IMG/VR virus record: IMGVR_UViG_3300031785_000018 | Span: 1 to 36,771 of that record | Direction: 5' to 3' (one strand) | Origin: a virus | DNA length: 36,771 nucleotides | Made by a program: the position numbers and the translations under genes | The notes under the pieces: model-generated | What the model saw: the letters and a program-made list of their open reading frames with translations, nothing else | What the model was told of the DNA's origin: nothing | Database searches by the model: none | In this document: positions 3,117-13,485 of the stretch, piece by piece | How positions within the stretch are numbered: position 1 is the stretch's first letter | Layout of the letters: each line of letters starts with the position of its first letter

Positions 3117-3319
3117 TGAAAAAATCAGAATTAATTCATTGGAGATTGCAAGCGATGCTTCGTGAGCATACTTTCCGTGATTTACAATACTTGGGTGTCA
3201 GACCTGATAGTATTGGTGTTGACCAACATTGGTATCGAATCGGAGAAGCAGAAGTACCTGTGGACTCAATTACAGAATTAGATAGTGAAGAGGAAGATGA
3301 TGAAAGTGACTCCATTTGA
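3116..3319 (+). CDS. Small phage protein of unknown function (67 aa)
   Basis: The start overlaps the gp33 stop (TAATG) and the end overlaps gp59 by 20 bases. The N-terminal half is basic and helical (KKSELIHWRLQAMLREHTFRDLQYLG). The C-terminus is a run of acidic residues and serines (ELDSEEEDDESDS), which may make it a DNA-mimic-like or flexible tail. No motif identifies it. Its position between gp33 and gp59 suggests a role in late transcription or replication, but that is context only. Confidence 0.75.
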   Translation: MKKSELIHWRLQAMLREHTFRDLQYLGVRPDSIGVDQHWYRIGEAEVPVDSITELDSEEEDDESDSI

Positions 3320-9250: not shown

Positions 9251-9970
9251 ATGCCTTTACCAACCATTTCAACTCCAACATATGAGTTGATACTTCCTTC
9301 GTCGGATAGAAAAATTAAATACAGACCCTTTCTTGTAAAGGAGGAAAAGATTCTCATTATTGCAATGGAATCTCAAGACACTAAACAGATCGCAAGAGCT
9401 GTTAAAGATGTTATTTCAAAATGTATATTATCAAAAGGAATAAAAGTTGAAAGACTTTCAACATTTGATATTGAGTATTTGTTTTTAAATATTCGTGGTA
9501 AATCTGTCGGTGAACAAATTGAAGTCATGGTTACTTGTCCTGACGATGGTAAGACACAAGTACCAACATCAATTAACATTGATAGTATAAAAGTTCAAAA
9601 AGATGAAGACCATTCACCTGACATCGTATTAGATGACATTTATACATTAAGAATGAAGTATCCATCTTTAACAGAATTTATCAAGAATAATTTTGGATCT
9701 CTTGATGAAATGAGTGTTGATGATACTTTTGATTTGATTGCATCTTGTATCGATCAGGTATATTCTGAAGAAGAATCGTGGACATCGGAGGAATGTACAA
9801 AGAAAGAATTGACAACATTTGTTGAGTCATTAAACTCGAACCAATTTAAAAAAGTTGAAAAATTCTTTGAGACAATGCCTAAATTGGCTCATACAGTTAA
9901 AGTGACAAATCCAAATACAAATGTAGAGAGTGAAATTAGAATAGAGGGGCTGCAGAGTTTTTTCGGATAA
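9251..9970 (+). CDS. 26: gp26-like baseplate hub assembly protein
   Basis: The 239-aa product fits the T4 gp26/gp51 baseplate-assembly family: an N-terminal beta segment (YELILPSSDRKIKYRPFLVKEEKILIIAMES), then KDVISKCI and STFDIEYLFLNIRGKSVGE, which is characteristic, and a helical C-terminal half ending KFFETMPKLAHTVKVTNP..IRIEGLQSFFG. These proteins assist hub assembly and behave as chaperones. T4 gp26 is 208 aa. A late promoter lies just upstream. The final codons contain T TTT TTC in frame, after a GAGGGG element, and the next ORF is in the -1 frame, so an extended 300-aa form may also be made. Confidence 0.85.
   Translation: MPLPTISTPTYELILPSSDRKIKYRPFLVKEEKILIIAMESQDTKQIARAVKDVISKCILSKGIKVERLSTFDIEYLFLNIRGKSVGEQIEVMVTCPDDGKTQVPTSINIDSIKVQKDEDHSPDIVLDDIYTLRMKYPSLTEFIKNNFGSLDEMSVDDTFDLIASCIDQVYSEEESWTSEECTKKELTTFVESLNSNQFKKVEKFFETMPKLAHTVKVTNPNTNVESEIRIEGLQSFFG
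9944..9964 (+). promoter_or_regulatory. Candidate programmed -1 ribosomal frameshift signal
   Basis: In the gp26 frame the codons AGT TTT TTC give the heptamer T TTT TTC (9958-9964), a valid X XXY YYZ slip site for tRNA-Phe. GAGGGG (9944-9949) precedes it by eight bases, resembling the Shine-Dalgarno-like stimulator of E. coli dnaX. After a -1 slip, codons CGG ATA AGT lead straight into the ATG of the 59-aa ORF with no stop. Function is inferred. Confidence 0.5.
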
Positions 9971-9972
9971 GT

Positions 9973-10152
9973 ATGGCACATGAAGATTTAGTGTCATACT
10001 ATAAATTAAATTTTGCTTTGATGCAGCACCATAAATATAGTTTAACTGAACTTGAGAACATGATGCCTTGGGAGAGAGAAATTTACGTTTCACTACTCCA
10101 ACAATATGTTGAAGAGGAAAATTTAAAAGCACAACAAGAACGTAATGGATGA
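9973..10152 (+). CDS. Small tail-assembly chaperone-like protein (59 aa), possibly a gp26 extension
   Basis: The ATG at 9973 opens a 59-codon frame ending TGA at 10150-10152, overlapping the next gene by eight bases. The product is helical: LNFALMQHHKYSLTELENMMPWEREIYVSLLQQYVEEEN. The pattern, a short helix, then SL-x-E-L-E, M-P-W-E, and a long L..Y.EEE helix, resembles the C-terminal T-type part of G/GT tail-assembly chaperones encoded just before tape-measure genes. It occupies the place of gene 51 in T4. The ATG has no Shine-Dalgarno at usable distance, consistent with expression as a gp26 fusion (see 9944-9964). Confidence 0.7.
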   Translation: MAHEDLVSYYKLNFALMQHHKYSLTELENMMPWEREIYVSLLQQYVEEENLKAQQERNG

Positions 10153-11857
10153 GGAACAAGGGTTATCATCACCAATAGCAGGAGGTCTTAGAGGTATTAG
10201 AAGAAGTGTGTCTTCTAGTGTCTTTACAGGTCGTGCTGTTCCACCACCTGTTTCAGATCCACAGACAACGAGTCTACTAAATCAAAATTCTCTTACTTTA
10301 ACATCTATATCTACACAACTTAGTGGTATTAATGAGTCAGTTGGTAATCTTAATACATCATTAAATGCTATAAGAGAAAATTTATCAATAAGTGAAGATA
10401 TAGAAAAAAATAAAGAATTACAAAAAAGAAAGAGAGAAGCACAATTAGCTGAACAGGGTTTAAGAGAAGGAAAAGAAAGTGAGTTAGAGAAAAAAATTCA
10501 ATTTGCATTGCTTTCTCCAGTTAGAAGAGTATCTCAAGTTGCAAGAGGTGTTTTAGGTAGATTGACAGATTCATTATTATTTCTTGCTGGTGGTTGGTTG
10601 ACAGTTCAAGCACTTAGATTTTTAGAATTTACATCGTCAGGAAATATTGAAGCATTAAAAAAATTAAAAGATCGATTTTTAAAAGATTTATTAATAATAG
10701 GTGGAATTGTTTTATCATTAACACTTGGTATTTCAAAAGTCTTTGCTTTAATAAAGGGTTTAACAGTATTATTATTAAAAGTTACATTTGGTGGGTTGCT
10801 TACAGACGGATTTAAATTTTTAGGAGCATTAATAAGGAATAACGTAGCTAAATTTTTAAGATTTATAAAGAGTGGATTAGGTAGGATAGGATTAAAAGGT
10901 TTAGGACCAATTTTAGGAAATTTAACAATACCTGGTGCAGGAATAATCGCTTCTCTACAAAATAGGATTATTAAATCATTAAAACAGATTCCTATCATAG
11001 GAGAATTATTTAAAGGTGGTAGAAAACCTTTCGATCCAAAGACAGCTAAAGTAGCTAAAGCTGGTTGGTTAGGTAAATTTTTTAATGCTCTTATTGTAAT
11101 TGAAAAGGGTATAAAAGTATTTACTGATTATAATGAGATGAGAGATAAAGGTCTCACTAAGTTTAAATCGATAGCGATAGCACTTGGAAAACTAGCTGTT
11201 GACATTGGAGTTTATCTTGCAGTCGTTAAGGGAACAGCTTTTGCATTAGGTAAAATAGGGGGTCTTATTGGATTTGCAGCAGGGATGTTGACAGGAGGTC
11301 CAGTAGGTGCTGCTTTAGGTTCAATCGCTGGTGCTAAAATTGGTGCTGGTCTTGGTTCAATTTTAGGTACAATTGGTTATTTCTTCCCTGGTGCTATTAA
11401 GGCAGTGACTGGTGGTTTAGTTGATGTTGAAAAAATAAAGGGACAAATGCAGGATGGAGTTGAAAATGTTATTTCTGGTGCTGGATCAACAAATAAGAAA
11501 GGAGTGCCACCTGGTAAAGTTCCTATAAAAAATAAAAGAGGAAGAACGATTGGATATAAAGATGCACCAAAAGATGAGAGTGTCGTATCTGCTGACTCTA
11601 CAACAATTACTTCAGCATCAGGTTTTAGTGTTGGTGAGGTAGTTCCATTTAAGACAGCTAATAATGGAGATAATTTAGAAATGTCATCAAATGTAGCAAA
11701 TGTTGTTGATGCTACGGTTAATAATAAATCTACATCAAAATCAAATTTTGCGGGTAGTACAACTAATGGAGGTATAGATGATACTCCTGATATAGAATCA
11801 TCAAATCCAAATGATAATAGTACAATTGTCGCATCAGCAGCTTTTAACATATTATAA
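10145..11857 (+). CDS. Tape-measure-like hydrophobic tail protein (570 aa)
   Basis: Residues 1-60 are Ser/Thr-rich. Residues 80-120 form a charged coiled-coil-like helix (EDIEKNKELQKRKREAQLAEQ). Hydrophobic stretches follow at about 138-160 and 181-230. A glycine-zipper region at about 355-425 (GGLIGFAAGMLTGGPVGAALGS) resembles the membrane-active part of tape measures. The C-terminus is polar and holds the shared module VPIKNKRGRTIGYK (about 458-471). T4 gp29, the tail-length determinator, is 590 aa and lies just before or beside gp27, the position seen here. No direct sequence match to gp29 is evident to me, so this is by composition and place. Confidence 0.6.
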   Translation: MDEEQGLSSPIAGGLRGIRRSVSSSVFTGRAVPPPVSDPQTTSLLNQNSLTLTSISTQLSGINESVGNLNTSLNAIRENLSISEDIEKNKELQKRKREAQLAEQGLREGKESELEKKIQFALLSPVRRVSQVARGVLGRLTDSLLFLAGGWLTVQALRFLEFTSSGNIEALKKLKDRFLKDLLIIGGIVLSLTLGISKVFALIKGLTVLLLKVTFGGLLTDGFKFLGALIRNNVAKFLRFIKSGLGRIGLKGLGPILGNLTIPGAGIIASLQNRIIKSLKQIPIIGELFKGGRKPFDPKTAKVAKAGWLGKFFNALIVIEKGIKVFTDYNEMRDKGLTKFKSIAIALGKLAVDIGVYLAVVKGTAFALGKIGGLIGFAAGMLTGGPVGAALGSIAGAKIGAGLGSILGTIGYFFPGAIKAVTGGLVDVEKIKGQMQDGVENVISGAGSTNKKGVPPGKVPIKNKRGRTIGYKDAPKDESVVSADSTTITSASGFSVGEVVPFKTANNGDNLEMSSNVANVVDATVNNKSTSKSNFAGSTTNGGIDDTPDIESSNPNDNSTIVASAAFNIL

Positions 11858-13485
11858 TGTCTGAACAACAAAGAAAAAATTCACTCTTAAGATCTTCGAT
11901 TAGTATTAATTCTATTCGACGTTCTGCTTTGCAATTTACTAAAAGTTTAGATAGATCTAATATTATCGCCAAAGACATTATTAAAACTACAAAAGATAAA
12001 AATCTTTTTGATAGAAAAACAATATCAAAAGATAATGAATATTTTAGAAAAAGAAGAGAAAATGTCCGAAGAAAGCAAAGAGAGGATGAGTTAGAGGCAT
12101 CAAGTATAACTGGTGTTACGAAAAGAGAAGGAACTGTAGCAGCAAAAAGCACCAAAGGATTTTTAGGTAGAATATTAGATTTCTTTGGAATTATTTTAAT
12201 TGGATGGTTTGTGACTAAACTACCAGGAATTATAAAGGCGATAGGTAATGTAATAAATGTGATAAAAAAAGCAGTAGGATTTTTAACTGGTTTTGTTGAT
12301 GGTGTAAGAGATTTTTTGACTGGAATTGGTGATGGAATTAAAAGAACCATTGATGCGTTTCCTAAATTTGATTTTGTGAGTCAAAGAACCGAAGGTGATA
12401 AAACAATTAAAGAAACTGAAGGTGTATTGACTAAATTAAATCAAGACTTTATATTTGCTTCAAGAGTCGCCACTAATAGTACTGATGATGTGCTAACAGA
12501 TAATCCCGACCTTGATCCAGAAACAGGTGAACTAATATACGATGAGGAACAGGAAAGACAATTAAGTGGAGATGTTCGAGCACCACAAGAAGGGACACAA
12601 GAAGAGACTGAGACAACAGATGGCACGATGATAGCGTCAGCAGATGGATTTAGTGTTGGTACATCATCTGATGTTGAAGGAACAAATACTGCTGTAACAG
12701 AACAGGAAATAACATTAGGTGATGATGATGAAAATAAAAAAATAGAAGAAGCAATTGATAAATTAGAATTAGGTGGAAAACGATTAGAAAATACTGGAGA
12801 AGATGAAGAATCTAAGCAATTAGCATCTAAGGTTGCTGAATCAACTGCAGGTGTAGGTGCTGGTGGTGCATCTAATGATGGAGCTCAAACTGGTGGAACT
12901 GGTGGAATAACTGGTGCTAAGACTAATATTAATGAAAAGAATGTTAAACTTAGTGATAATAAGGAAGATGAGGTAGATGAAGAAGAATCTGAAGAAGAAA
13001 AAGGTGTACCAATAAAAAATAAGCGTGGAAGGATAATAGGATATAAAAAAGTTGATCCTGCTCAAGTATCAAAGAAAGATGATTCAACTATAAGTTCAAC
13101 TTCTCAAAATGTTGAGATGAGTGAGTTCGATAAGCGAAAAAAAGAGATAATACTAAAGGAAAAATATGGTGGCACTGGTAGACCAATAACTGTCGGAAAC
13201 AAAACTTACAATCCTGGTGATGAAGGTTATATTGAAGCATTTAATGTGATTCAGAACGTTACGTATAGAGATGGAGCTATCGTTCCCCTTTCTAAGAAAA
13301 ACAATAATTTAGAAATGACAAATAAAACAGATAGACCAACTATTATATTCACCGATGCAGGTGCACCAGTTTCTAGTTCTCCCTCAATGGGTGGTGGTGG
13401 AGGTCGCTCTGGTGATATAGTTCTTAAAAATTCTAATGATTCTCAAACAATGAAAAAAATTCATACTTTAATATTGGAAAGTTAA
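11857..13485 (+). CDS. Second tape-measure-like/tail structural protein (542 aa)
   Basis: It begins with a very basic helix (about residues 1-80, e.g. RKRRENVRRKQRED), then a hydrophobic, glycine-containing segment (FLGRILDFFGIILIGWFVTKLPGIIKAIGNV, about 102-132). The rest is acidic, polar and Gly/Thr-rich with low complexity. It shares with the upstream gene the module VPIKNKRGRIIGYK (about 382-397), a GFSVG motif, and an NNNLEM segment, so the two are partial paralogues. Together they may act in the tail lumen or hub. The C-terminus (SGDIVLKNSNDSQTMKKIHTLILES) is unlike the first. The start overlaps the upstream stop (TAATG). Confidence 0.6.
   Translation: MSEQQRKNSLLRSSISINSIRRSALQFTKSLDRSNIIAKDIIKTTKDKNLFDRKTISKDNEYFRKRRENVRRKQREDELEASSITGVTKREGTVAAKSTKGFLGRILDFFGIILIGWFVTKLPGIIKAIGNVINVIKKAVGFLTGFVDGVRDFLTGIGDGIKRTIDAFPKFDFVSQRTEGDKTIKETEGVLTKLNQDFIFASRVATNSTDDVLTDNPDLDPETGELIYDEEQERQLSGDVRAPQEGTQEETETTDGTMIASADGFSVGTSSDVEGTNTAVTEQEITLGDDDENKKIEEAIDKLELGGKRLENTGEDEESKQLASKVAESTAGVGAGGASNDGAQTGGTGGITGAKTNINEKNVKLSDNKEDEVDEEESEEEKGVPIKNKRGRIIGYKKVDPAQVSKKDDSTISSTSQNVEMSEFDKRKKEIILKEKYGGTGRPITVGNKTYNPGDEGYIEAFNVIQNVTYRDGAIVPLSKKNNNLEMTNKTDRPTIIFTDAGAPVSSSPSMGGGGGRSGDIVLKNSNDSQTMKKIHTLILES

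Follow-up and report, generated by a model that had tools for sequence, protein, structure and literature searches.

The 36,771-nucleotide viral sequence analyzed here (IMG/VR record IMGVR_UViG_3300031785_000018, positions 1 to 36,771; hereafter, the window) carries gene 26 directly followed by a 59-aa ORF. We estimate a probability of about 94% that the two constitute one recoded gene, in which a −1 frameshift would give short and long forms of a tail assembly chaperone (TAC). Read directly, the 3′ codons of gp26 are ATA GAG GGG CTG CAG AGT TTT TTC GGA TAA, and the overlap of the gp26 and −1 frames contains an in-phase heptamer of the X XXY YYZ type. After a −1 slip, C9964 would be re-read and translation would proceed through CGG ATA AGT ATG GCA CAT (R I S M A H) into the 59-aa ORF, yielding a predicted fusion of 238 + 62 = 300 aa with the junction ...SFF-RIS-MAHED.... 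Candidate stimulatory elements flank the heptamer at the expected spacing, with GAGGGG 8 nt on the 5′ side and a hairpin 5 nt on the 3′ side (Table 1). An earlier note on this DNA had pointed to T TTT TTC in frame within the last gp26 codons, to GAGGGG eight bases ahead of it, to a −1 frame open into the small ORF with a fusion of about 300 aa, and to an ATG at 9973 lacking a Shine-Dalgarno sequence. Direct reading bears out all four, and the coordinates given; the ATG lies 2 nt past the gp26 stop and has no good Shine-Dalgarno nearby.

Table 1. Coordinates of the gene 26 junction and of the following gene in the window.
Feature	Position	Strand	Remarks
gp26 short form (TAC-N, "G" analogue)	9251..9970	+	239 aa plus stop; PF12322, PHROG 150
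Shine-Dalgarno-like GAGGGG, likely upstream stimulator	9944..9949	+	8 nt before heptamer
Slippery heptamer T TTT TTC	9958..9964	+	in gp26 frame, direct reading; conserved in relatives
Predicted −1 extension (TAC-NC, "GT" analogue)	9964..10152	+	62 codons plus stop, open −1 frame
gp26 stop TAA	9968..9970	+	one codon past heptamer
Hairpin 5′ arm AGTATGGCAC	9970..9979	+	begins 5 nt past heptamer; holds ATG of 59-aa ORF
59-aa ORF, usual annotation "gp51" (baseplate hub assembly catalyst)	9973..10152	+	PHROG 634, E 4e-28
Hairpin 3′ arm GTGTCATACT	9991..10000	+	pairs with AGTATGGCAC
Next gene, 570 aa, tape-measure-like by position only	10145..11857	+	homologue of P-SSM2 gene 016

From the window alone, whose G+C content is 34%, a chance T run in an A+T-rich genome was plausible. 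A fortuitous heptamer is conceivable there because Phe is mostly encoded by TTT in five neighboring genes (85 of 95 codons, the other 10 being TTC) and because T TTT TT is found in phase once more, at 12313. Conservation in relatives ruled this explanation out. Our locus set comprised 268 sequences from IMG/VR and annotated phages, the window included; many are close relatives, and counts clustered at 60% protein identity are the fair ones. In 262 of the 268, the gp26 profile and the profile for the C-terminal segment both found a match. Four of these are T4-type loci with gp26 and gp51 on opposite strands, and the remaining 258 carry both on one strand. The C-terminal segment lies in the −1 frame relative to gp26 in 257 of these 258 loci. 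The single locus in another frame (L177) has one T fewer in its run (3245–3260) than the 99%-identical L176, which is probably a homopolymer sequencing error.

The slip site itself is nearly invariant, as T TTT TT(C/T/G) occurs in 190 of 192 distinct junctions (146 TTTTTTC, 40 TTTTTTT, and 4 TTTTTTG). The heptamer is separated from the gp26 stop by one codon in 152 distinct junctions, by none in 37, and by eight in one. Phages bearing the heptamer include cyanophages, KVP40-like phages, Caulobacter Cr30, Delftia W-14, and phages of Sinorhizobium/Rhizobium, Stenotrophomonas, Aeromonas, Ochrobactrum, and Methylophilales, a range that covers KVP40, Cr30, phiM9, W-14, YB07, and S-CRM01. Judged from sequence, the predicted frameshift arrangement is kept in most T4-like phages examined, except close relatives of T4. 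One locus without the heptamer (L122) has a gp26 that ends early with a different sequence. Two distant phages, Serratia phage phiMAM1 (L259, 1450–1700) and Vibrio phage D528 (L170, 3170–3420), keep a −1 ORF after gp26 and lack the T TTT TTN heptamer (AG GTT TTC ATC TGA and CA CTT TTC AAG TAA TGG, respectively), so these phages may use coupling or a different slip site.

Codon choice was compared with the expectation from gp26 codon use in 36 usable representatives obtained by clustering at 60% protein identity. The codon ahead of the Phe pair ends in T in all 36 (19.9 expected), and the first Phe codon is TTT in all 36 (20.9 expected), with a summed log10 P of −21 for the two choices. Within the 18 nt upstream, pairing to the anti-Shine-Dalgarno reaches −6.8 kcal/mol versus −4.9 kcal/mol in synonymous shuffles and is stronger in 83% of cases. 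The modal spacing of this Shine-Dalgarno-like element across relatives is 10 nt by the pairing-energy measure; counted directly, the distance in the window is 8 nt. The comparison with relatives proposed in the earlier note therefore favored the frameshift on each point it covered: the slip site is kept, the −1 frame is kept, and the upstream element exceeds the level seen in synonymous shuffles, with a preferred distance.

Folding energy relative to dinucleotide shuffles was lowest just 3′ of the slip site (mean z −1.13, s.e. 0.23), with all other scanned positions weaker (z −0.8 to +0.3). Across 60 relatives, the hairpin cells were paired in 92% of cases, versus 22–49% when the partner was slid. 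One pair, 21–35, was seen as U-A, A-U, and G-C; it accounts for 22 double changes, a number that 0 of 500 shuffles reached, and the double changes are confined to this pair. By direct reading, the partners in pair 21–35 are the third position of the Ala-2 codon and the second position of codon 7 (V, E, or A) of the 59-aa ORF, so that a substitution at residue 7 is accompanied by a synonymous change in Ala-2. Pair counting with slid controls was adopted because RNAalifold alone retained only three stem pairs, one with a compensatory change. Some relatives have another hairpin, a weaker one, or none. Neither this hairpin nor the link to T4 gp51 described below was part of the earlier reading of the window.

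The 59-aa segment also matches the C-terminal part of PHROG 150 (E 4e-6) and is most likely the C-terminal domain of a gp26 fusion. In the database records that we inspected, it is annotated as a separate gene, left unannotated, or begun far inside. The records of cyanophages ACG-2014e, ACG-2014d, and S-PRM1 (L263, L264, and L267) leave the conserved C-terminal segment 3′ of gp26 unannotated. An in-frame ATG for the small ORF is present near the stop in 152 of 192 distinct junctions, where it could be translated separately, and is absent in 40. In 38 junctions, the −1 frame offers no ATG, GTG, or TTG ahead of the conserved core, which leaves fusion as the only apparent route to the C-terminal segment; in two others, TTG is the sole start candidate.

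These start codons bear on whether some free C-terminal protein is made by re-initiation alongside the fusion, a refinement of the frameshift reading rather than an alternative to it. Most lineages retain the ATG beside the slip site, but it has been lost repeatedly and is sequestered in the hairpin in the group to which the window belongs, and we consider such a second product unlikely. A rival proposal holds that the 59-aa ORF is a separate gp51 made solely through translational coupling, with ribosomes re-initiating at the ATG just past the gp26 stop and the T run being incidental. The proximity of that ATG to the stop, its frequency among the junctions, and the listing of the ORF as its own gene in databases are what this proposal would lead one to expect. 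However, coupling requires no fixed −1 frame, no conserved heptamer, and no T-ending synonymous codons, and it does not accommodate the 38 junctions devoid of a start codon. Several records, moreover, omit the segment or start it far inside, and the ATG sits within the hairpin; we regard re-initiation as the sole route as highly improbable. Transcriptional slippage on the T run, for which the 8 T of some relatives with TTT TTT ahead of TAA might speak, strikes us as just as implausible, given that the run in most junctions is just 6 T long, ends in C, and keeps a constant codon phase, and that an upstream Shine-Dalgarno and a downstream hairpin are features of ribosomal frameshifting.

The identity of gp26 is consistent with a frameshifted chaperone gene. 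It matches PF12322 (T4_baseplate, E 1e-74) and PHROG 150 (E 2e-79), and its AlphaFold2 model has a pLDDT of 85.9. The top-ranked Foldseek match of this model was the HK97 tail assembly chaperone (2OB9), at a weak E of 0.7. VIA-align gave Z values of 7.8 for 2OB9 (84 residues), 7.8 for 3FGX, 7.0 for 3KLU, and 5.0 for 5IR0, followed by 2.8 for the next match, and all four top matches fall within gp26 residues 1–96. Values of Z under 8 are modest by themselves, and the weight lies in the consistency of the top matches; 3KLU (YqbN) and 3FGX are presumably also prophage tail chaperone relatives. The modeled N-terminal domain of gp26 thus matches the TAC fold, in support of the comparison with lambda G/GT that had been drawn from the window. 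A sequence-based search of solved structures turned up nothing relevant for either gp26 or gp51. At the sequence level, the conserved overlapping −1 frame would let a single start give rise to a short and a long form. Near its C-terminus, gp26 carries CPxCG (or CxxCG) in KVP40, W-14, YB07, and D528 (L160, L165, L169, and L170), a motif absent from the cyanophage proteins; it is a possible zinc ribbon, lost or replaced in cyanophages.

The next gene had been called tape-measure-like, a label that its position suggests. Pfam and PHROG yielded no convincing match for the 570-aa ORF, and BLASTP detected no similarity to the tape measure annotated in Cr30. This ORF and the consecutive 542-aa ORF (11857–13485), for which no family match was found, both contain VPIKNKRGR.IGYK, which suggests that their C-terminal parts are related. 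Hydrophobic segments span residues 178–220 and 342–368 of the 570-aa ORF and residues 101–130 of the 542-aa ORF.

Under the frameshift reading, most ribosomes would terminate at the TAA ending at 9970 and release the 239-aa short chaperone. A minority would pause on T TTT TTC, where GAGGGG pairing to 16S rRNA and the hairpin five bases 3′ would hold them. Both Phe-tRNAs would then slip back by one base into the −1 frame, giving the 300-aa long form, which has an additional domain at its C-terminus. If lambda gpG/gpGT is a guide, both forms may coat and recruit tail tube subunits and the tape measure protein while the tail or baseplate hub is assembled, and neither would be found in the virion. 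We infer the slipping itself, its efficiency, and the chaperone function from what the sequences provide, namely the frame, heptamer, spacing, hairpin, conservation, and similarity of the gp26 fold.

In three of the four T4-type loci, a single gp51 ORF is hit by the C-terminal profile and, weakly, by the gp26 profile; T4-type gp26 matches the gp26 profile only. Profile comparison aligned the full length of gp51 with the joined gp26 and 59-aa protein (99.3% probability, 242 columns), T4-type gp26 with the first part of the fusion (99.8%), and gp51 with gp26 (99.1%). Since gp51 aligns with the whole fusion and gp26 with its first part, T4 holds the two forms, whose proteins are homologous to those here, as two genes, gp26 being the short form and gp51 the long form. 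The forms are thus encoded on opposite strands without frameshifting in T4-type phages, whereas a single gene with a predicted frameshift would supply both here. We lean toward a joint scenario in which T4 gp26 and gp51 descend from one chaperone gene that was already frameshifted in the ancestor of the wider T4-like group and was later split, and in which the cyanophage-like hairpin is selected strongly enough that the synonymous base of Ala-2 tracks residue 7 (V/E/A). Gene duplication would have replaced the frameshift in the T4 lineage, with one copy losing the C-terminal domain and the other fixing it in frame.

Marine cyanophages, together with their relatives, rank among the most abundant of known viruses. 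Recognizing the fusion corrects their annotation, as the inspected records show two genes or miss the second, and the "gp51" of these phages would gain a defined role as a chaperone C-terminal domain. It would also connect genes 26 and 51 of T4, long assigned to hub assembly, with the mechanism of lambda G/GT, and it offers a natural set of slip sites with upstream element and hairpin for study.

Several known systems share parts of this arrangement. In lambda gpG/gpGT and other tail assembly chaperones, −1 frameshifting was reportedly described by Levin in 1993 and by Xu, Hendrix, and Duda in 2004. Lambda G/GT likewise has a short chaperone ORF followed by a −1 ORF, a slip near the 3′ end, and adjoining tail genes. 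By comparison, gp26 has an added domain and a greater length (239 aa), uses T TTT TTC with a Shine-Dalgarno-like element and a hairpin, and precedes a neighbor that is tape-measure-like by position only. The HK97 chaperone has a fold similar to the modeled N-terminal part of gp26. In Escherichia coli dnaX, a −1 frameshift involves a Shine-Dalgarno-like element about 10 nt ahead of the heptamer and then a hairpin. The gp26 junction has the same order of elements, but dnaX is a cellular gene with an A AAA AAG heptamer, and its product ends early after the shift.

The earlier statement that no description exists for gp26 of T4-like phages is not safe. Our literature search for a frameshifted gp26 in cyanophages found nothing specific; however, Vladimirov, Gautam, and Davidson (2022) identified tail assembly chaperones in T4-like phages, as relayed in two later papers (PMC10885494, PMC12846349). 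The PRFect paper (PMC10885494) cites this work for some T4-like phages having short and fused long chaperone genes without frameshifting, and the Adele paper (PMC12846349) cites it for T4-like TAC-N genes that contain poly-T slip sites. The kind is already known from lambda G/GT, and the T4-like gp26 case is possibly covered by the 2022 work, to judge from these secondhand accounts. For Vandenendeviridae and Andersonviridae, comparative evidence likewise points to a poly-T −1 frameshift in a myovirus chaperone gene, with a GTTTTT slip motif, as given in the phage Adele paper (PMC12846349); these are other families with another motif. Alongside these systems, the predicted gp26 frameshift stands as a well-supported, mostly unannotated case of a known kind.
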